Shown here piece by piece: positions 233 to 26,411 of a stretch of DNA of 64,000 bases. The DNA is from Tistrella mobilis (GTDB lineage Bacteria > Pseudomonadota > Alphaproteobacteria > Tistrellales > Tistrellaceae): contig NZ_JBBIAB010000022.1 in the NCBI RefSeq assembly GCF_039634785.1, positions 1 to 64,000 of the forward strand, written 5' to 3'. Under the pieces are notes generated by a model. The model was not told the origin of the DNA. It searched no databases and saw only the letters and a program-made list of their open reading frames with translations. Within the stretch, counting starts at the first letter, position 1; every line of letters starts with the position of its first letter. Both the position numbers and the translations under genes were made by a program.

Positions 233-2323
<2,091 letters not shown>

Positions 2324-2489
2324 TATTCGTCGTTCCCCCGCTCAGAAACGCACGCTGCGCCTTGATTCCGATGCTTGCCCATGAGGTCGATGCCCCGTCC
2401 TTCAACGGCCGTGAGGCGCCGCTCCCGCGATGATGACAGCATCACCGCGGCAACGACGCCCCGCGTCATCGCCGAACCCGCCCCGACCC

Positions 2490-4382
2490 TCAAAGGTCGA
2501 AACCGTCGCTCTGATCGAAGGCCGCCAGTCCGCGCTCGTTGTCGTCAACGAGCTTCTTGAGCGCGACGAACCGCTGCAAAGCTTCTTCCGTCATGCTCTC
2601 GACAAGCTCCTGCTCTGCGGCCTTCAATTCGTCGACCAGCTGCGCATGCCGGTGTACAGCCAGCACATTGCGCCATCCGGCCAGAACCCTGTCGAATGCA
2701 GCTCCGGGCCCCGCGAACGGCACACGGCCGGCATTCTCCGCCGCCGTCAACCGGTCCACCAGGTCCGAGAACCCTCGCAGTCTCAAATGGTCCTGCAGCG
2801 TTTCACTGTCAAGACCAGACTCCGATGCGTGCGTATCTACGATCGCAGCCCGCAAGATGTCAAGCTCAGGGGTGGCGACCGGCAGGGCCGCCACCTCGTC
2901 CTCCGCCACCTCAAGCAGTTGAGGATGAAGAAGAACCGCCGCCAGAAGCGCCGCTTCGCGCCGTGCCGACTGGCCCTCGTTTCCCTGGCCGAGCGCCGGG
3001 GCGGCGATGGGCGTCGGGTCGTCGTTCAGCTGGCCGGGCCTGGGCTTGCCGCCGCGACGCTCTCCCTGCGGCCGCTGAAAGCCCGGCCGGCCGGGTGCCG
3101 CCGGCCCGCCGCCGCGCCTGGCGCGACGCAGCTGCCAGACCCGGTCGCGGAAGTCGCGGCGATACAGGTCGCGGATCAGCGGGTCGCGGATCGTATCGGC
3201 CTGGGCCATCAGATCGGCTTCGAGCGCGGCCAGCCGCTCGGGCGTGTCGGTGGCATGGCCTTCCAGCGCCGCCTGCCAGAGCAGGTCGATCATCGGCTGC
3301 GGGACGGCCACGGCCCGATCGAACGCCCCCACCCCTTCGGCCCGGATCAGGCTGTCGGGATCATGGCCGCCGGGCAGGCGCACGAAGCGCAGGCTGTGGC
3401 CGGGCTTCAGCAGCGGCAGGGCGCGCTCGGCCGCGCGGCGCGCGGCACGGATGCCGGCGGCGTCGCCGTCCAGGCACAGCACCGGCTCGGGCGCCATGCG
3501 CCACAGCTCTTCGATCTGATGTTCGGTCAGCGCGGTGCCGAGCGGCGCCACCGCATGGGGCCGGCCGGCCTGAACCAGGGCGGCCACGTCCAGATAGCCT
3601 TCGACCACCAGCACCGTGCCGGCCTTGCGCGCGGCCTCTCGGGCGACCGGCCAGCCATAGAGCACGCGGCCCTTCTCGAACAGCGGCGTGTCGGGGCTGT
3701 TCAGGTATTTGGGCTCGCCATCGCCCAGAACCCGGCCGCCGAAGGCGATGATCCGGCCACGCCGGTCGGCGATGGGGATGATCAGCCGGCCGCGGAAATA
3801 GTCGAAGGCGGAGCGGTCCTCGCGCCGGCGCGCCAGCCCCGATTCGACCAGCCGGTCCAGCGCGATGCCGCGCTGCTCGAAGGTGCGGATCAGCACGTCG
3901 CGCCGGTCGGGCGCATAGCCGAAGCGGAACCGGCCCCAGCTCTCGGGCCCGAAGCCGCGGCGGACCAGATAGTCGCGGGCCGGCGCCGCCTCGTCGGTGC
4001 CGAGCCGGCTTTCGAACCAGCGGCAGGCCTCTTCGACGACGTCGACCAGCCCCTCGCGGCGCTCGGCCTTGCGCTTCGCATCCGGATCCTCGGCGGGGAC
4101 GGTCAGCCCCACCTCCCCCGCCAGCCGCTCCACGGTCTCGCGGAAGTCGAACCCGCCGAGCTTCATCTCGAAATCGATGGCGTCGCCCTTGGCGCCGCAG
4201 CCGAAGCAGTAATAGAAGCCCTTGTCGTCGCTGACCGTGAAACTCGGCGTCTTCTCGTTGTGGAACGGGCAAAGGCCGGTGTGCTCGCGGCCGCGGCGGA
4301 TCAGCTTGACCCGGCGGCCGACCACGTCCGACAGGCGGATGCGGGCACGCAGTTCCTCGATGAAGCCGGGGGGCAGCGCCAT
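2490..4382 (-). CDS. dnaG: DNA primase DnaG
   Basis: DNA primase makes the RNA primers for replication and acts with the DnaB helicase. The 630-residue protein begins with the CHC2 zinc-binding domain: CPFH near residue 39 and CFGCG near residue 62. A central TOPRIM domain carries EGYLD in VVEGYLDVAALV. The C-terminal third is Pro/Arg-rich and then helical, matching the helicase-binding domain. The length is normal for alphaproteobacterial DnaG. It is 10 bases downstream of yqeY and upstream of rpoD, a modified version of the classic macromolecular-synthesis operon in which yqeY takes the place of rpsU. Confidence 0.97.
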   Translation of the reverse strand: MALPPGFIEELRARIRLSDVVGRRVKLIRRGREHTGLCPFHNEKTPSFTVSDDKGFYYCFGCGAKGDAIDFEMKLGGFDFRETVERLAGEVGLTVPAEDPDAKRKAERREGLVDVVEEACRWFESRLGTDEAAPARDYLVRRGFGPESWGRFRFGYAPDRRDVLIRTFEQRGIALDRLVESGLARRREDRSAFDYFRGRLIIPIADRRGRIIAFGGRVLGDGEPKYLNSPDTPLFEKGRVLYGWPVAREAARKAGTVLVVEGYLDVAALVQAGRPHAVAPLGTALTEHQIEELWRMAPEPVLCLDGDAAGIRAARRAAERALPLLKPGHSLRFVRLPGGHDPDSLIRAEGVGAFDRAVAVPQPMIDLLWQAALEGHATDTPERLAALEADLMAQADTIRDPLIRDLYRRDFRDRVWQLRRARRGGGPAAPGRPGFQRPQGERRGGKPRPGQLNDDPTPIAAPALGQGNEGQSARREAALLAAVLLHPQLLEVAEDEVAALPVATPELDILRAAIVDTHASESGLDSETLQDHLRLRGFSDLVDRLTAAENAGRVPFAGPGAAFDRVLAGWRNVLAVHRHAQLVDELKAAEQELVESMTEEALQRFVALKKLVDDNERGLAAFDQSDGFDL

Positions 4383-4392
4383 GGGGTGCGGG

Positions 4393-4860
4393 TCAGCCGG
4401 GCTGGCAGTTGCGCAGCAGGCGCTTGGCCGCAGAGCTGGCGCAGCCCAGGTCCATTTCGGGCCCGTAGGCGGATTTCAGGGCATCGACCGTGCGCCCCAG
4501 ATCCTTCAGCCCCTTGGCGCAGCAGGCGGCGATCGTGGCGCGCACCGCCGCCTCGATCTCGTCCTCCGACATCTGCGGCGGCAGGAAGCGGCGGATCACC
4601 CGCTGCTCCAGCTGCTCCTGCTCGACCAGTTCGATGCGGCCCGACTGCTCATACGCGCCGATGCTCTCGTCGCGCTGACGCAGCATGGTGCGGAGCATGT
4701 CGTGGATCTCGGCATCGTCGATCGCATCCCGCCCCCTCACATGGGCGGCCGCGTCACGGTCCTTGATCGCCGTCCGGATCAGGCGAAGCACGGCCAGCTC
4801 TTCGCTGTCGCCCTGCTGTTCGGCCTGGGCAAGCGCGTCCTTGAGGCGCTCACGAAGCAT
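4393..4860 (-). CDS. GatB/YqeY domain protein
   Basis: A 155-residue protein of the YqeY family, related to the tail domain of the amidotransferase subunit GatB. It begins MLRERLKDALAQAEQQGDSE and contains the typical RLIRTAIKDRD and RRFLPPQMSEDEIEAAV segments. The family is thought to interact with tRNA or amidotransferase, but its function is not settled. The open frame extends upstream to about 5376, but the family match starts at the ATG ending at 4860, so that start is used. It is first in the apparent operon with dnaG and rpoD. The C-terminus (CASSAAKRLLRNCQPG) is less typical of the family than the rest. Confidence 0.88.
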   Translation of the reverse strand: MLRERLKDALAQAEQQGDSEELAVLRLIRTAIKDRDAAAHVRGRDAIDDAEIHDMLRTMLRQRDESIGAYEQSGRIELVEQEQLEQRVIRRFLPPQMSEDEIEAAVRATIAACCAKGLKDLGRTVDALKSAYGPEMDLGCASSAAKRLLRNCQPG

Positions 4861-5393
4861 GGAAGTCGATCCCTCGAAAAGACGGAAACCGGCGACCCCG
4901 TCGCGCCGCGGCCGCCGGGAACCCGGCCCCGGATGCCGCAGATCATGACAGAGACGGCGGCATCGTGGCGGTGCGGGGCAGTTAACGGGGGCACGGACGA
5001 TGTGACAAGCTTTCATATTGCGTGTCAGCCCCCCGGGTTTCAATGGCCGGCACGCGGACGCCCCCCTTGCGAAATCAGCGGAGCCCGCGGCTTGACCGGG
5101 GGGAGGGGTTTGCGTATGGTCCGTCCGGTCGATCCGGCGCCCACCCGCCGGGCGTCTACGCACGCGCCCTCTTCGCTGCCGCAACCGCCTTGCCTGCCTG
5201 CCAGGTCGTTTACAGGTTGCGCCCGTGACCCCCTCCGACGCCCCGCCTTGTGCCGCAGTCCCGCGGCCGGGACGCCGGCCGGCCGGGTCCGCGAGCCGGG
5301 CCAGCGTCCCCGGATGGACCACGCATTCGCTATCATCGGCCGCCTTGGGGCTTCCCGGGCGGCCGCGTCGCATCATCCTGGGGGCTCGCTATC
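4861..5393. promoter_or_regulatory. Divergent yqeY/carA intergenic region (533 bases)
   Basis: This region separates the minus-strand yqeY-dnaG-rpoD genes from plus-strand carAB. A good promoter for carA is listed separately and would give a leader of roughly 265 bases. A 10-base direct repeat (tcgctatcat) occurs at 5327-5336 and 5386-5395, the second copy overlapping the carA start codon. A short ATG frame opens at 5315 and runs past the carA start out of frame, so it could couple to carA translation. No conserved gene was recognised here. Confidence 0.5.
5092..5120 (+). promoter_or_regulatory. Candidate sigma-70 promoter for carAB
   Basis: TTGACC at 5092-5097 and TATGGT at 5115-5120 are separated by 17 bases, close to the housekeeping consensus. 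Transcription would start near 5127. It points at carA and is the best-matching promoter seen in the divergent intergenic region. Confidence 0.5.
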
Positions 5394-6558
5394 ATGCAAG
5401 AGGCGTCGAACTCGCCCGCCCTGGCGGCTACGGCCGCCCTCGTTCTGGCCGACGGCACGGTCTTCTGGGGCCTGGGCGTCGGCGCACGAGGCATCGCCGA
5501 GGGCGAGCTGTGCTTCAACACCTCGATCACCGGCTATCAGGAGATCCTGACCGATCCCTCTTATGCCGGTCAGATCATCACCTTCACCTTCCCGCATATC
5601 GGCAATGTCGGCACCAATGACGAGGACCTGGAAACCACGACGCCGGCGGCGCGCGGTTTCGTCCTGAAGGCGCTGCCGACCGAGCCGTCGAATTTCCGCT
5701 CCACCCGCCGCCTGCAGGACTGGACGGCGGCCCACGGGCTGATCGGCATCGCCGGCGTCGACACCCGCCGCGTCACCCGCCTGCTGCGCGACAAGGGTCC
5801 GCAGAATGCGGTGATCTGGCATGGCGAGGCCGGCTCGGCGGATCTGGACGCGCTGAAGGCGCAGGCGAAGGCCGCCCCCAGCCTGGAAGGTCTCGATCTC
5901 GCGATCACGGTGACCTGCGCCCAGACCTATGCCTGGGACGAGACCCCGTGGGAATTGGGCCAGGGCTTCGGCCGGCAGGAAAGCCCGCGCTTCAAGGTGG
6001 TCGCGGTCGATTACGGCGCCAAGCGCAACATCCTGCGCTGCCTGGCCGGTACCGGTGCCGAGGTGGTGGTGGTGCCCGCGACCGCAACCGCGGACGAGAT
6101 CCTGGCGCACGAGCCCGACGGCATCTTCCTGTCCAACGGCCCCGGCGATCCGGCGGCGACCGGCGAATATGCCGTGCCCCAGATCCGCCGGCTGATCGAG
6201 ACCGGCAAGCCGACCTTCGGCATCTGCCTGGGCCATCAGCTGCTGGCGCTGGCGGTCGGCGCCTCGACCGAAAAGATGGACCGCGGCCATCGCGGCGCCA
6301 ACCAGCCGGTCAAGGACCTGACCACGGGCAAGGTTGAAATCACCTCGCAGAACCATGGCTTCCGCGTCGTCGCCTCGTCGCTGCCGGCCAATGCCGAAGT
6401 GACCCATGTCTCGCTGTTCGACGACACGCTGGAGGGCTTCCGCCTGACCGATCGCCCGGTCTTTGCGGTGCAGTACCACCCCGAAGCCTCGCCGGGACCG
6501 AAGGACAGCCACTACCTCTTCGACCGTTTCGCGCGCCTCATCGAGAAGACCAAGACCG

Positions 6559-6566
<8 letters not shown>
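5394..6566 (+). CDS. carA: Carbamoyl-phosphate synthase small (glutaminase) subunit
   Basis: The glutamine amidotransferase subunit of carbamoyl-phosphate synthase supplies ammonia for the arginine and pyrimidine pathways. The 390-residue product has the CarA N-terminal domain ([18 protein letters not shown], then [16 protein letters not shown]) and a class I glutaminase domain. The latter includes SNGPGDP, the nucleophile-elbow [12 protein letters not shown] with its catalytic Cys, and [11 protein letters not shown] with the catalytic His and Glu. The frame stays open upstream, but homology begins at the ATG at 5394. Its last 8 bases overlap the carB start, indicating translational coupling. 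Confidence 0.97.
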
Positions 6567-9804
<3,238 letters not shown>

Positions 9805-15879: not shown

Positions 15880-16701
15880 TCAGAGGTCCTCTGCCGCCTC
15901 TTCCGTTGAATCGTCATTGGTTGCGACGCGGTTGCGGCCCGAGCGCTTGGCGGCGTAAAGCGCCTTGTCGGCCCTGGAAAGCACCCGGTCGATGTCGTCG
16001 CCGGGGGCCGAGAAGCGGGCCAGGCCGAAGCTGGCGGTCAGCCGGATCTCGTCGCCCTTCCAGGGCATGCGGATGGCGGCGGTCGTGGCCCGCAGGCGCT
16101 CCGCCACCTCGTCAAGCTCTGCCGCGCCGATCCCCGGCAGCAGCACGGCGAATTCTTCGCCGCCCAGCCGGCCGACCAGATCATCCTCGCGCAGCGTTTC
16201 GGACATCCGGCCCACGAACAGGCGCAGGGCCTCGTCGCCGGCCGCATGGCCGAAGCGGTCGTTGATCGTCTTGAAACGGTCCAGATCGGCCATGATCACG
16301 CCCGAGGAGCGCCCCTCATGGCGCCACTGGTCGGCAAGATGGGCCGCCACATCCATGAAATGGCGGCGGGTGGCGGCGCCGGTCAACTCGTCGACCGCAG
16401 CCAGCGCTTCCAGCCGGTGGGCCAGGGCCTCACGCGTGCGGACCTCGGCTTCCAGCCGCTGGTTCAGCCGGCGCAGTTCTTCCTGCATGCGATCCGAAAG
16501 ACGGACCAGGCGGCGCTGTTCCCGATAGCCCTGGCGATAGGCGCGCATCAGCGTCCGCACGCCATCGGAGACTTCCTCCAGCTTGCGGAGCATCTCCTCG
16601 CTCTGGGCGATCATCGCCTCTTCCTGGTCGAAGAGCGAGAAATCCCCCGTCGTCGCCGGCTCGGGCAGGGTCTTCACCCTGGTCACCTTGGGCCTGGTCA
16701 T
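15880..16701 (-). CDS. GGDEF diguanylate cyclase, SiaD position in a sia-type operon
   Basis: A 273-residue predicted cytoplasmic diguanylate cyclase that would make c-di-GMP. Residues 25-100 form a long charged coiled coil (EEMLRKLEEVSDGVRTLMRA onward). The GGDEF domain follows, with DELTG at 104 and the active-site GGEEF at 180-184. An inhibitory I-site RxxD (REDD, 171-174) sits five residues before it, so product inhibition is expected. It is the last gene of the sia-like operon, 15 bases after the SiaC-like gene. In Pseudomonas aeruginosa, SiaC binds and activates SiaD. The N-terminal coiled coil here is the likely docking site, by analogy. No membrane segment is seen. Confidence 0.88.
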   Translation of the reverse strand: MTRPKVTRVKTLPEPATTGDFSLFDQEEAMIAQSEEMLRKLEEVSDGVRTLMRAYRQGYREQRRLVRLSDRMQEELRRLNQRLEAEVRTREALAHRLEALAAVDELTGAATRRHFMDVAAHLADQWRHEGRSSGVIMADLDRFKTINDRFGHAAGDEALRLFVGRMSETLREDDLVGRLGGEEFAVLLPGIGAAELDEVAERLRATTAAIRMPWKGDEIRLTASFGLARFSAPGDDIDRVLSRADKALYAAKRSGRNRVATNDDSTEEAAEDL

Positions 16702-16716
16702 CTCACGTCATCCCGA

Positions 16717-17127
16717 TCAGTCGCCACCATCTCCGTCCGCGCACATGACGAAGTCGATGTGCTCCAGGTCGGATGCGAAATCCTCCCCGAATTCCTCCAT
16801 CGTCTCATCATCCGGAGCAAAGTGCCAGTTCACAGTGACCGTGCGTCCATCTGCCGCCGATTCTTCCAACATCTGGAAAATGTTCATCAAAGCTTTCGCA
16901 CTCGATGAGTTGAAGTAGATCAGCGAGATGTCCACCGTGACGCTGGGTCCGTCTTCGGCCAGGAAACTGCGCAGCGCATACAGGATCGGCCCGTAGAAGG
17001 CGGCGGCGTCCTCAGGGTAGGACTCGCCCGCCATCGAGAACCGGCCGGCGACCGGATCGAAACGCACCGCCGGCGACCGGTCGGTGGCAGCGATCTCGAT
17101 GGCGAGGGGGGAGTCGGAAGCGGTCAT
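16717..17127 (-). CDS. SiaC-like regulatory phosphoprotein (DUF1987)
   Basis: A 136-residue protein of the SiaC/DUF1987 family, small single-domain partners of the SiaB kinase and SiaA phosphatase. The core VTVDISLIYFNSSSAKALMN is at about residues 63-82. In the family this motif usually reads NTSS, and the Thr is the phosphorylated residue. Here it is Ser (N73-S74-S75-S76). The ATG overlaps the siaB-like stop by 4 bases (ATGA), so translation is coupled. In the family model, unphosphorylated SiaC stimulates the diguanylate cyclase. The strongly acidic C-terminus (after about residue 103) is a feature of this copy. Confidence 0.85.
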   Translation of the reverse strand: MTASDSPLAIEIAATDRSPAVRFDPVAGRFSMAGESYPEDAAAFYGPILYALRSFLAEDGPSVTVDISLIYFNSSSAKALMNIFQMLEESAADGRTVTVNWHFAPDDETMEEFGEDFASDLEHIDFVMCADGDGGD

Positions 17128-17666
17128 ATGAACACCTTGAGGCCATAGAAGGTGGTCTGAGCGTCGATTTCGAAGAAATCATACTCGATGGGGGCACTGG
17201 CACGACGGGCGATCTCGATCAGCCCGAGCGTCGCGCCCTTGCTGTCGACATCGGGGTCTTCTTTCAGCTTCTGGCGGTAGAGCGCCTTCAGTTCATCGGG
17301 CGACAGGGCCGCGATCTCGGCCAGCCGCTGGCGCAGGCGCGGTGCCCGCGCCGCGTCGATCACATTGGCGCAGATCACGAAGAACCGGCCGTCTTCCTTG
17401 CCCACCGTCACGATGCCCGAGCGTGCGGCATCGTCGTCGGGGCCATGGGCATCATCGGAATAGCGGATGATGTTCTGGACCTGCTCGACGAAAACCGAGA
17501 ACACCCGGCGGGTCAGATTGCGGTCGGTGGCGTCCTGCTCCAGCTTGCGGCGCAGCGCTTCCCCCAATGAGAACAGAATGCCTTCGGACATGATGCCGCT
17601 ATAGATCAGCATCAGCTTGTTGGCCTGTATCTGGGTGCGGAAATCGTAAAGGTCTCGGGCCAGCAC
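17124..17666 (-). CDS. SiaB-like protein kinase (DUF6272)
   Basis: A predicted 180-residue GHKL-fold kinase that would phosphorylate the SiaC-like protein encoded next. Visible motifs are IYSGIMSEGILFSLGEALRR near residue 21, the N-box-like VEQVQNIIRYSDD at 60-72 and KGATLGLIEIARRA, a possible glycine box, near the C-terminus. The start is set at a GTG (17664-17666) because GAGGAG lies 7 bases upstream. An in-frame ATG 33 bases earlier (17699) has no ribosome site but would also clear the siaA-like stop. It overlaps the next gene by 4 bases. Identification rests on motifs plus operon context. Confidence 0.8.
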   Translation of the reverse strand: MLARDLYDFRTQIQANKLMLIYSGIMSEGILFSLGEALRRKLEQDATDRNLTRRVFSVFVEQVQNIIRYSDDAHGPDDDAARSGIVTVGKEDGRFFVICANVIDAARAPRLRQRLAEIAALSPDELKALYRQKLKEDPDVDSKGATLGLIEIARRASAPIEYDFFEIDAQTTFYGLKVFI

Positions 17667-17713
17667 CTCTCGGCTCCTCGGACATATGCCGCATCGCATG
17701 CGACGTCGGCGCG

Positions 17714-19378
17714 TTACGGTTCGTCGGGGGTTGGGGTCGGGGTTGGAGTTGGGGTCGGGTGGCCTGCGGTCGTGCTGCCATCGGCCAGAGGCCCGGGCAG
17801 GCGCGGCCGGAAGGCCACCAGGGTCATGTCGTCGCGCCGGGCCTCGGCCCCGCGCCAGTCGTCGAGCGCCGCCGTCAGCGCCCGCAGCCGGTCCGCCAGC
17901 GGCAGATCGGCATGGCTCGCCAGCAGGGCCGCCATCCGGCGCCGGCCGAACAGCCGCCGCGACGGCCCGCCGACATGGTCGGTCACGCCGTCGGTCCACA
18001 GATGGAAGCTCTCCCCCGGCCGGACCTGATGAAGATGGACCGGAATGCGCCCAGGCGGCGGCAGGGTCCGGTAGCCCAGGCTGCGACGCACCCCGGTGAT
18101 CGACGAGACGCCGTCGGGGCCGACCACGGTCAGCGACAGCCCGGCGCCGGCGAAGGCAACCGTCCCGGCCGCCTCGTCATAGAGGCAGACCGCGGCATCG
18201 ACCCCGTCATCCGAGGCATCATGCCCGCCCGGATCCGGCCGGTCCTGGCGCAGCCGCGCCCGCAGCCGCCAGTCCAGCTCCGCCAGGATCAGATCGGGTG
18301 CCGGCATGCTTGCCACGTCCAGGATCGCCTTCAGCTCCGAGGCGACCACCAGGGTCATGAAGGCGCCCGGCACGCCGTGACCGGTGCAATCCGCCAGCAG
18401 GATCAGGCATTTGCCGTCGCGGCGTTCCATCCAGCAATAATCGCCGCCCACCACATCCAGCGGCTCCCAGAGCAGGGCGATATCGGCCATTGCCGGCGCC
18501 AGCACCGCAGGGTCGGGCAGGATGCCCTCCTGGATCCGGCGGGCATAGCGGATGCTCTCCATCACCTGGCGGTTTGCGGTTTCCAGCTCGACATTCTTCT
18601 CGACCAGCGCCGCCTGGGCATCCTGCAGCGCCTCCAGCAGGCGGCGGGCATCGTCGCCGGCGCGCAGCCCCGCCACCATCCGGTTGAAGGCGGCGGCCGC
18701 CTGGCCCAGCTCGTCGTCGGTCGGCTCGTCCAGCGTGGTCCAGCTCTTGTGTTCCACCTGGCGCATCGCCCGCAGCATCCGCCCCAGCGGCTGCACGACC
18801 AGCCGGCGCATGGCGAACTGCACCGTGATCGACAGGGCGCCGGTCAGCAGCAGCACGGCGAAGGCCGCCGTCGCCACCTGCAGGATCGCAATCCGGTTCA
18901 GCTCCCCGGTGGCGAAGGCCACCTCCAGCGTGCCGACCTTGATATGCCCCTGCGGCTCTATGATCGTGCGCGAAACGGTGATCGCGCCGCTGCCGGGCTC
19001 GGGCGGGGTGCCGGTCTCGAACAGCATCTCGTCATTGTCGTCCAGCACCCGGGCGTAGCGGAAACCCCGGTCGCTGACCAGCGCTTCGACCTGCGGCTCG
19101 AACACCGTGCGGTCCAGATACCAGAGCGGAGTGGCGATGGCGGCGGCGGTCAGATCGGTCAGCACCCCGGCGCGACGCTCCAGCGCCCGGCGCTGATCGG
19201 TCCAGGTGATCCAGGCGATGCTGCCCTGGATCAGCAGCACGATCAGCATCACCACCGGCAGGGTACGGCGGAACAGCTTGGCGGCCAGCGAGCGCTTCGG
19301 CGCGCCGGCGGCCTGTGGCCGGCCCACCGCCGCCCGCCCCATTGCCGCCCGGGACAACGTTTCGCGTTTTTCCGTCAT
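17714..19378 (-). CDS. SiaA-like membrane PP2C/SpoIIE phosphatase with HAMP domain
   Basis: A 554-residue sensor phosphatase predicted to dephosphorylate the SiaC-like protein. The order is: cytoplasmic N-terminus, membrane segment 1 (about 40-60), periplasmic sensor region (60-162), membrane segment 2 (163-185), HAMP (about 187-245) and a coiled coil. A SpoIIE/PP2C catalytic domain follows, with metal-binding DVVGGDY, ADCTGHGVPGAFMTLV and DDMTLVAF. The C-terminus ends in a (Thr-Pro)5 tail encoded by hexanucleotide repeats. The start is the ATG ending at 19378, 34 bases after the stop of the solute-binding gene. Domain order matches P. aeruginosa SiaA. Confidence 0.88.
   Translation of the reverse strand: MTEKRETLSRAAMGRAAVGRPQAAGAPKRSLAAKLFRRTLPVVMLIVLLIQGSIAWITWTDQRRALERRAGVLTDLTAAAIATPLWYLDRTVFEPQVEALVSDRGFRYARVLDDNDEMLFETGTPPEPGSGAITVSRTIIEPQGHIKVGTLEVAFATGELNRIAILQVATAAFAVLLLTGALSITVQFAMRRLVVQPLGRMLRAMRQVEHKSWTTLDEPTDDELGQAAAAFNRMVAGLRAGDDARRLLEALQDAQAALVEKNVELETANRQVMESIRYARRIQEGILPDPAVLAPAMADIALLWEPLDVVGGDYCWMERRDGKCLILLADCTGHGVPGAFMTLVVASELKAILDVASMPAPDLILAELDWRLRARLRQDRPDPGGHDASDDGVDAAVCLYDEAAGTVAFAGAGLSLTVVGPDGVSSITGVRRSLGYRTLPPPGRIPVHLHQVRPGESFHLWTDGVTDHVGGPSRRLFGRRRMAALLASHADLPLADRLRALTAALDDWRGAEARRDDMTLVAFRPRLPGPLADGSTTAGHPTPTPTPTPTPDEP
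17726..17760 (+). repeat. GGGGTY hexanucleotide repeat with G-quadruplex potential
   Basis: About five imperfect GGGGTT/GGGGTC units lie at the 3' end of the siaA-like gene, encoding its Thr-Pro tail on the minus strand. The plus strand carries several runs of 3-5 G with 2-base loops, a classic quadruplex pattern. A six-base unit keeps the reading frame when it expands or contracts. Confidence 0.7.
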
Positions 19379-19412
19379 GCCCGCCTCCGGCGCATTGCCC
19401 GCCGTTCCCCCA

Positions 19413-20225
19413 TCAGTCTTCCCTGAACGTCGCCGGGTCCAGCCCATAGGCGTGCCAGAGCGGCGCCAGCCGGCCGGCACGGTCCAGCCGGGCCAGAAGC
19501 CCCCGGATCGCGGCGGCATCCGGATCCAGCCCCGGCCGGGTCAGCACCCGCAGATCGTAAAGCTGATCGACCTGATCCGACACCAGCAACCGCGCCAGAT
19601 CATTGGGCCGATCGGCAAGATAGCGGCTGAGGAAGGATTGCGTCACCACCCCCGCCTCCACCCGTCCCAGCAGCACCAGTTCGATGACCGCGGCATTGTC
19701 GTTCACCAGCACCAGGTCGAAGCGGCGGCGCATCTCGTCGGGGTCGCCGGCGAAATCCGCGAAGGCGTAGTGATAGCCCAGGATGGCGGCGATTTTCGTC
19801 GCCTTGACGCCGGCGAACCAGGATTTGTCGCGCCCGGCGTAAAGCTGGGCGATGAACACCTCGCGATCGGTCGCGATCGTGTCGGAGACGTCGAGCGGAA
19901 TGTCCCGCCGGCTCCAGCCCCAGCCGGCCATTTCGAAGAACATCACGTCGAAACGGCCGCGGGCGAAATCGTCATAGCGCCTGAGCGGCGTGGTCGGCAC
20001 CAGCTCGAAGCGCCACGTGTCCTGGATCTGGTTCAGCAGGGCGATCAGCTCCACCGTCAGCCCCTGCGGCCCCGTTCCGCCCTCGCCGAACGAGACATAG
20101 GGCGCGAACTGATAGCCGCCGACCCTGACGATCTTCGGCTCCGCCCCCGCTGCCATTGCCGCCTGAGCCAGGACGCCGGCCACGGTGATCACGGCTGCCG
20201 CCAGCATCATCATCAGCCGATGCAA
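19413..20225 (-). CDS. Periplasmic solute-binding protein (family 3 / PAAT-like), first gene of the sia-like operon
   Basis: A 270-residue protein with a Sec signal peptide (MHRLMMMLAAAVITVAGVLA, cleavage near AMA-AGAEP at about residue 25). A bilobed amino-acid-type binding domain follows (VRVGGYQFAPYVSFGEGG, then ELIALLNQIQ and YDDFARGRFDVMFFEMAGW). No ABC permease or ATPase is near. Instead it precedes siaA by 34 bases on the same strand, so it is more likely a ligand sensor for the SiaA-like periplasmic domain than a transport component. This is inference from context. The ligand is unknown. Confidence 0.82.
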   Translation of the reverse strand: MHRLMMMLAAAVITVAGVLAQAAMAAGAEPKIVRVGGYQFAPYVSFGEGGTGPQGLTVELIALLNQIQDTWRFELVPTTPLRRYDDFARGRFDVMFFEMAGWGWSRRDIPLDVSDTIATDREVFIAQLYAGRDKSWFAGVKATKIAAILGYHYAFADFAGDPDEMRRRFDLVLVNDNAAVIELVLLGRVEAGVVTQSFLSRYLADRPNDLARLLVSDQVDQLYDLRVLTRPGLDPDAAAIRGLLARLDRAGRLAPLWHAYGLDPATFRED

Positions 20226-20475
20226 CGCAGTTGACCCCCCGCAATCCCGTTCCTAAAGGCAATCGGTGACATGACGGGATACGGCAAGAGTGGCCCGTTC
20301 ACGACGGTGGAGATTATCAACAATGCACGCCAATGCCTACAGCATGCGGCGGTGCCGCCTGCCGTTTCACGGCCGGATTGCATCATGTTTCCGCAGCACG
20401 GCGCGAGACGTTGGTTCGTGATGCGTAAAGCAGTGGTGACCTGCTGCTTTTCATCCGTCTGTCACAATGCTTACG

Positions 20476-20509
20476 CGCAAAAAGAAAGCCATGCACAACG
20501 TGCATGGCT
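20476..20509 (-). terminator. Minus-strand hairpin terminator in the gene-poor region
   Basis: A perfect 10-base-pair stem (AGCCATGCAC, 20487-20496, with 20500-20509) has a 3-base loop. On the minus strand it is followed by ttctttttg. It is 250 bases upstream of the solute-binding gene and nearly 1 kb past msrP, so its transcript is probably an unannotated short RNA. Confidence 0.7.

Positions 20510-24200: not shown

Positions 24201-26411
<2,211 letters not shown>

Follow-up and report, generated by a model that had tools for sequence, protein, structure and literature searches.

A periplasmic binding protein as the probable input of a Sia-type phosphorylation switch in Tistrella mobilis

A window of 64,000 nucleotides from the alphaproteobacterium Tistrella mobilis (positions 1 to 64,000 of contig NZ_JBBIAB010000022.1, i.e. 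the whole stretch of DNA that was analysed) carries, on its minus strand, five adjacent genes that resemble the SiaABCD signalling system of Pseudomonas aeruginosa and are headed by a gene for a periplasmic solute-binding protein (SBP). This first open reading frame (ORF), at 19413..20225, starts at TTG 20225 or ATG 20213 and encodes an orphan SBP of 266-270 amino acids (P0001). It is followed by genes encoding a SiaA-like membrane PP2C phosphatase of 554 amino acids (P0002; 17714..19378; PF07228, HAMP and a match to structure 6k4e), a SiaB-family protein kinase of 180 amino acids that most likely starts at GTG 17666 (17124..17666; NF038262), a SiaC phosphoprotein of 136 amino acids (16717..17127; PF09345, alignment with 6kko) and a SiaD-like diguanylate cyclase of 273 amino acids with an N-terminal stalk and a GGEEF motif (15880..16701; NF038266, PF00990, 7e6g).

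The first-pass annotation had described a same-strand run of these genes with short gaps or 4-base overlaps, and the five minus-strand ORFs bear this out. The SBP and SiaA genes are separated by 34 bp, and SiaA and SiaB by 47 bp from GTG 17666, the alternative start GTG 17717 giving a 4-base overlap with SiaA; SiaB and SiaC overlap by 4 bases, and 15 bp separate SiaC from SiaD. A pattern scan of the minus strand found no terminator-like or promoter-like site between the five genes, the interval between the SBP gene and siaA included. The same scan found a terminator-like hairpin (20487-20509, minus strand) and a weaker one (20325-20347, minus strand) upstream of the SBP gene, and counted 8 terminator-like sites on both strands of the region versus 2.4 in shuffled sequences. 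Comparison of Tistrella genomes reveals purifying selection on all five genes, with ratios of non-synonymous to synonymous substitution (dN/dS) of 0-0.23: 0.17-0.23 for the SBP, 0.15-0.16 for SiaA and 0-0.10 for SiaB, SiaC and SiaD. The higher values of the SBP and SiaA are as would be expected of an input unit, for which they are weak evidence. As the same gene order recurs elsewhere, the arrangement is not due to chance, and the five-gene operon is confirmed as real.

The operon lies on contig C22 (75,535 bases) of the genome and, along its full length, shares 96.0% identity with DNA of the T. mobilis plasmid pTM3, which was also the sole match, unannotated, in a protein search of plasmid records for the SBP. 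Genes resembling rpoD, dnaG, carAB and uvrB were recognized by eye on the same contig (window positions 233-9804 and 24201-26411), and pTM3, a 'plasmid' of 1.13 Mb, holds a uvrB-like gene as well as the operon. Because such genes are found on the replicon of the operon, the pTM3-type replicon looks like a chromid, as judged from its gene content.

As far as sequence comparison can tell, the four genes following the SBP gene provide all the components of a Sia module, namely a SiaC with a phosphorylatable residue, a SiaB-family kinase, a SiaA-type PP2C phosphatase and a stalked GGDEF SiaD. Indeed, SiaC matches PF09345 with 143.3 bits (cut-off 24.5), SiaB matches the family model NF038262 with 205.6 bits (cut-off 85), the GGDEF domain of SiaD matches PF00990 with 147.1 bits (cut-off 23.8) and the SpoIIE/PP2C domain of SiaA matches PF07228 with 80.2 bits (cut-off 25). 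The NCBI equivalog models of the P. aeruginosa proteins match all four, in each case below the cut-off: 222.9 bits versus 700 for SiaA, over residues 168-524 only and with the N-terminus unmatched, 116.8 versus 225 for SiaB, 99.6 versus 150 for SiaC and 170.5 versus 290 for SiaD (NF038266, spanning residues 44-259). The proposed identification of the five proteins by profile searches is thus upheld for the SiaB and SiaC families, both above their family cut-offs, and for the PP2C and GGDEF domains, and fails for the four equivalogs and for the SBP family PF00497. Solved structures extend these matches. The PP2C domain of SiaA (residues 264-526; 17801..18589, minus strand) matches the P. aeruginosa SiaA-PP2C structure 6k4e with a Z score of 31.1 and 35% identity, and its catalytic and metal-binding Asp residues line up with those of 6k4e; residues 35-258 of SiaD, i.e. 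stalk and cyclase, match the solved SiaD 7e6g; the single significant solved relative of SiaB is 6kko_A. In the alignment with 6kko, Ser74 of SiaC stands at the Thr68 phosphosite, the Thr of an NTSS motif, which is the residue phosphorylated in P. aeruginosa according to the available text of PMC7647112.

The SBP is far less typical at the sequence level. Its residues 4-22 are hydrophobic and probably correspond to an N-terminal signal segment. Profile matches are weak (PF12974, 26.8 bits versus a cut-off of 27; PF00497, 14.4 versus 26.4), and the protein is not among the 10 PF00497 matches of its genome. Its AlphaFold model (mean predicted local distance difference test score 94.1) has the fold of amino-acid SBPs; the best structural match is 8gtu_A (Z 20.8, root-mean-square deviation 3.2 Å over 223 residues), 3h7m reaches Z 20.4, and the matches comprise amino-acid SBPs and SBP-like sensors of kinases. 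The description of the protein as a family 3 binding protein therefore stands for the fold and for its relatives, 44 of 53 of which match PF00497 at E ≤ 0.01, and not for P0001 itself, which remains under the cut-off. With P0001 alone as query, phmmer found no match at E ≤ 1 among solved structures, and the viral contigs searched contained no relative.

In the alignment of 53 family members, 12 residues are invariant, including W102, W104, H152, Y153 and D220, and the WxW motif is kept in 53/53. As relatives were retrieved with the pattern G[YF]HY[AGR]F[AT][DGN][FM], the conservation of the GxHYxFA motif is partly built in; WxW lies outside this pattern, and five rows of the alignment (A3) found without it, in a search of 385 genomes, also keep GxHYxFA. 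These unusual invariant Trp, His and Tyr residues would suit a periplasmic enzyme resembling cyclohexadienyl dehydratase that makes or destroys the signal, as would the reconstructed protein AncCDT-1, which is the first Foldseek match of the model and the top match of a profile search against solved structures. Such an enzyme is nevertheless very improbable, AncCDT-1 being itself described in its entry as an ancestral amino-acid-binding protein and the later Foldseek matches, which are tied, being binding proteins.

The nature of the ligand is another matter. In LAO and HisJ, an Arg and an Asp hold the alpha-amino acid. In HMMER profile alignments, positions 105 and 195 of the SBP align with the ligand Arg and Asp of solved amino-acid SBPs. 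Position 105 is variable, with Arg in 5 of the 53 relatives, and position 195 is Thr in 43/53 and Asp in 0/53, in an anchor check whose control alignment was flawed, as one of its five rows came from an ORF on the wrong strand. With these canonical family 3 anchors lost, the SBP would not be expected to bind an ordinary amino acid, and the amino-acid-like ligand suggested at first pass is not supported.

The absence of transport genes was correctly noticed: none of the 111 PF00528 permeases of ATP-binding cassette (ABC) transporters found in the whole genome by profile search lies on contig C22. Those 111 permeases would nonetheless leave room for an SBP that is a mere passenger of the operon or serves a distant transporter, SiaA sensing by itself, for example, membrane perturbation, the signal proposed for P. 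aeruginosa SiaA in the accessible part of PMC12834913. This alternative, to which the survey of genomes described below also speaks, is quite unlikely, and the P. aeruginosa sensor implicated in that proposal is absent from the Tistrella SiaA.

The N-terminal part of this SiaA differs from that of P. aeruginosa SiaA. A hydropathy scan predicts two transmembrane helices (residues 32-50 and 163-181) that enclose a short putative periplasmic sensor of 112 residues (residues 51-162; 18893..19228, minus strand). The corresponding loop has about 286 residues in L201 and L202, two SiaAs of the P. aeruginosa type, and this large sensor is missing from the Tistrella protein; a HAMP domain follows the short sensor (residues 190-240; 18659..18811, minus strand; PF00672, 38.8 bits). 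The P0002 sensor shows a weak CHASE5 match (14.3 bits) and matches HK_near_YfiR_like with 26.3 bits, under the cut-off; its match to the DgcN/YfiN model is under the cut-off as well. Among 27 aligned SiaAs, the sensor region matches HK_near_YfiR_like in 26/27 and DgcN/YfiN in 20/27 (E ≤ 0.001), and CHASE5 in 9/27 (E ≤ 0.01). The list of structural matches for the whole of SiaA is filled by those of the PP2C domain. By sequence, the SBP-linked SiaAs form two groups, one with 44-49% and the other with 31-34% identity to P0002; that of locus L062 is at 39%. The likeness of the short sensor to YfiR-associated receptors, together with the lost amino-acid anchors, could mean that the SBP works without a ligand, as a docking repressor or scaffold comparable to YfiR acting on YfiN, and holds SiaA off or on under the control of redox state, envelope stress or its own level rather than of a solute. 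This appears unlikely, as the flytrap fold and the conserved set of residues suggest that a pocket has been kept, and as part of the matches to these models corresponds to the HAMP region, which is common to many receptors.

The reading favoured here, in which the SBP is the dedicated periplasmic input of SiaA, draws on the recurrence of the pair in other genomes. A scan of species genomes yielded 404 SBP relatives, and the counts given here cover the best 80; genes were called by a codon-based, self-trained script of our own, so that start sites are approximate, and nine loci in which the SBP had been missed were rescanned over all ORFs. The SBP gene lies directly upstream of a same-strand gene for a short-sensor SiaA in 25 of these 80 loci, i.e. 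as a gene pair conserved beside the receptor, as for SBP-gated receptors, with spacings from a 28-base overlap to 74 bases and a 4-base overlap in 7/25. Seventeen pairs belong to the Azospirillum group and 8 to other organisms, and the pairing recurs across several lineages and settings. The complete five-gene order with a GGDEF gene is found in the window, G002, L059/G001, G160 and L076. In 15 Azospirillum-group loci, the pair stands beside a convergent cluster of siaB, siaC and a gene for a histidine kinase bearing the SiaD stalk, located on the opposite strand, past an OmpR-type regulator, and in all 17 loci of this group it is apart from siaB-siaC. As the SBP of this group adjoins SiaA and not SiaB-SiaC, it belongs to the SiaA input. 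The pair also occurs alone in L063, L065, L066 and L062, with siaC elsewhere in those genomes. In 18/25 pairs, the gene calls for the stretch retrieved around the pair include SiaC, accompanied by a GGDEF SiaD in two (L059, L076) and by a SiaD-stalk histidine kinase in 16 (L061 and the 15 loci of the Azospirillum group). L125 contains siaB and the SiaD-stalk kinase gene, but its gene calls lack siaC. Furthermore, 11 chosen Rhodospirillales-type genomes all encode SiaC, and a short-sensor SiaA is found beside the SBP in 5/11; in the remaining six, no SiaA adjoins the SBP, and the SiaA matches (E ≤ 1e-20) start at query residues 202-231, which indicates that they cover the cytoplasmic part only, without the short sensor.

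Taken together, these gene neighbourhoods suggest that the SBP is tied to the short sensor of SiaA, not to c-di-GMP (cyclic diguanylate) output or to the operon as a whole. The relay proposed at first pass, from binding protein to SiaA and then to c-di-GMP, thus keeps its first half, with the pairing tying the SBP to the SiaA sensor and the relay itself being inferred, and loses its tie to c-di-GMP, as the 15 Azospirillum-group loci and L061 have kinase targets. SBPs of the family also neighbour other receptors: in L135 (Desulfobacteraceae; L135:7926-12071), the gene is separated by 3 bp from the following gene for a hybrid histidine kinase, whose N-terminal part weakly matches the SiaA short sensor (E 4.8e-4), in L101 (Desulfobacterota; L101:8001-10948) it precedes a histidine kinase gene with a masked sensor stretch, and in L074 the following gene, 111 bases on, encodes a chemoreceptor.

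Other arrangements around Sia genes were observed. The SiaD stalk is carried by a histidine kinase instead of a GGDEF protein at L040:8055-9080 and L042:8986-10056, as in the 15 Azospirillum-group loci, and this fusion apparently gives the SiaC switch a two-component output. In Magnetospirillum aberrantis (L216:2545-3297), a different orphan SBP-like protein of 250 amino acids, weakly related to the P0001 family, is encoded 55 bases upstream of siaB, siaC and a SiaD-stalk kinase gene. Small secreted-type proteins (92-129 amino acids as called), alike by eye, precede alphaproteobacterial SiaAs with short, different sensors at L045:11627-12016, L047:3914-4192 and L213:5869-6246; the two of the three that were scanned gave no Pfam match, and such proteins could represent another type of periplasmic partner for SiaA.

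Several observations weigh against a dedicated role of the SBP in SiaA signalling. No SiaA lies beside the SBP in 55 of the best 80 relatives, and 17 of the 25 pairs come from one lineage. Pseudomonas SBPs have no sensor neighbour and often occur with a tandem second copy (for example in L075, L085, L088, L091, L093 and L094); downstream of the tandem genes there is often a convergent gene encoding some 252 amino acids, with a 50-base overlap. Conversely, G282 and G513 encode a short-sensor SiaA without an adjacent SBP gene, and neither genome contains a match to the SBP profile; the LWxLD stretch is not conserved in the one aligned SiaA of G282. In L062, the SBP gene also overlaps by 4 bases an upstream gene for a large-sensor SiaA of 758 amino acids, so that a single SBP gene is flanked by large-sensor and short-sensor SiaAs (L062:2117-6784) and its partner is ambiguous. 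In G160 (L039:6009-6843), a frameshift close to a G-run interrupts the SBP reading frame towards its end, either through an error in sequencing or because the gene has recently become a pseudogene. Co-occurrence adds to these points: in a class sample of 385 alphaproteobacterial genomes, 8 of the 13 strong SBP matches (E ≤ 1e-15) are in genomes without SiaC, and in a phylum sample of 398 genomes, with SiaC in 66 and a strong SBP (E < 1e-40) in 23, both are present in 2 genomes, fewer than the 3.8 expected.

The class sample also contains the opposite signal. SiaC scores above its cut-off in 12 genomes, 7 of them without the SBP, and both proteins are encoded by 5 genomes (three Tistrella, G160 and G052) versus 0.4 expected, or 3 versus 0.3 if Tistrella is counted once (p 0.002); the two genes are neighbours in all five. 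P0001 matches with E > 1e-5 (G036, G041, G357 and a second one in G052) were left out of these counts. A general co-occurrence of SBP and SiaC, seen in this sample and absent from the phylum sample, was rejected. Likewise, a single origin of the pairing was rejected, as the tree, parts of which are poorly supported, needs 7 changes, of which at least 3 are forced by well-supported branches. Among 20 further SiaC loci, mostly from other classes and from two other alphaproteobacterial genera, 18 have no P0001-type gene among their listed neighbours (the caller found no SiaC in L198 and L206). The many SBP relatives that stand alone and the SBP-free short sensors of G282 and G513 are also what a passenger would predict; against it, the SBP-SiaA order is conserved in several lineages and in several settings, and the two genes are often closely spaced.

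The five genes, the profiles and the recurrent pairing agree with the Sia-type switch headed by a binding protein that was postulated at first pass, and comparative evidence gives good support, short of proof, to a Sia switch fed by a binding protein. The SBP is probably the dedicated periplasmic input of the membrane phosphatase SiaA in a Sia partner-switching module. In P. aeruginosa, SiaB phosphorylates SiaC, SiaA dephosphorylates it, and unphosphorylated SiaC binds SiaD through its stalk and activates it (relevant passages of PMC7647112 and PMC8457831). By analogy, the Tistrella SBP, empty or loaded with ligand, would dock on the short sensor of SiaA, and the HAMP domain and a coiled coil would carry its state to the PP2C domain. 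SiaA would remove the phosphate from Ser74 of SiaC, opposing the kinase SiaB, and unphosphorylated SiaC would bind the stalk of SiaD and turn on c-di-GMP synthesis. In the Azospirillum group, the output of SiaC would be the SiaD-stalk histidine kinase instead of a cyclase. The SBP-SiaA pair would therefore behave as a separable input cassette, the target of SiaC being a cyclase in Tistrella or a SiaD-stalk histidine kinase in the Azospirillum group.

A broader proposal is held with slightly more confidence than doubt: the SBPs with the WxW and GxHYxFA motifs may form an orphan family devoted to signalling, not transport, whose main receptor in Rhodospirillales-type bacteria would be a PP2C phosphatase. 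A solute would set the phosphorylation of SiaC and thereby act on c-di-GMP or on a two-component pathway through interchangeable SiaD-stalk enzymes, and in Desulfobacterota the family would feed histidine kinases. If so, phosphatases would join the receptors that binding proteins can control, SiaC switches would be pluggable into different inputs and outputs, and the Sia module, whose SiaA signal in P. aeruginosa is still argued over, would gain a sensor amenable to purification and ligand screening. Azospirillum, a plant-associated genus that many laboratories grow, would be convenient for testing this. An open-literature search, including the accessible portions of PMC9239204 and PMC11113362 and excluding a 2021 review on SBP signalling, found no description of an SBP with a Sia system; the suggestion of an undescribed variant is thus provisionally sustained.

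Among known systems, the SBP_bac_3 or polar amino acid ABC binding proteins share the fold of P0001, and P0001 differs from them by its sub-threshold profile score, the ligand Arg and Asp that are not kept and the lack of a permease on its contig. YfiBNR (TpbAB) also has a separate periplasmic partner, and the short sensor and HAMP domain of the Tistrella SiaA resemble YfiN and YfiR-associated kinases; in Tistrella, however, the partner is a flytrap SBP, without any match of P0001 to the YfiR family in Pfam and NCBIfam, and the output enzyme is a phosphatase. NspS-MbaA, as portrayed in the portions of the literature available, combines a polyamine-binding protein with a c-di-GMP enzyme and likewise has the gene of its periplasmic binding protein next to that of a membrane receptor feeding c-di-GMP, whereas the Tistrella receptor is a PP2C phosphatase acting through SiaB and SiaC. 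In the available part of PMC9602780, the receptors said to be activated by SBPs are chemoreceptors, sensor kinases, cyclases/phosphodiesterases and Ser/Thr kinases, and phosphatases are mentioned as a receptor class only. Finally, P. aeruginosa SiaABCD has the same PP2C SiaA, SiaB kinase, SiaC with a Ser/Thr phosphosite and stalked GGDEF SiaD in one operon, whereas in the Tistrella operon the four proteins score below the P. aeruginosa equivalog cut-offs, the periplasmic loop of SiaA is much shorter and an SBP gene is added.

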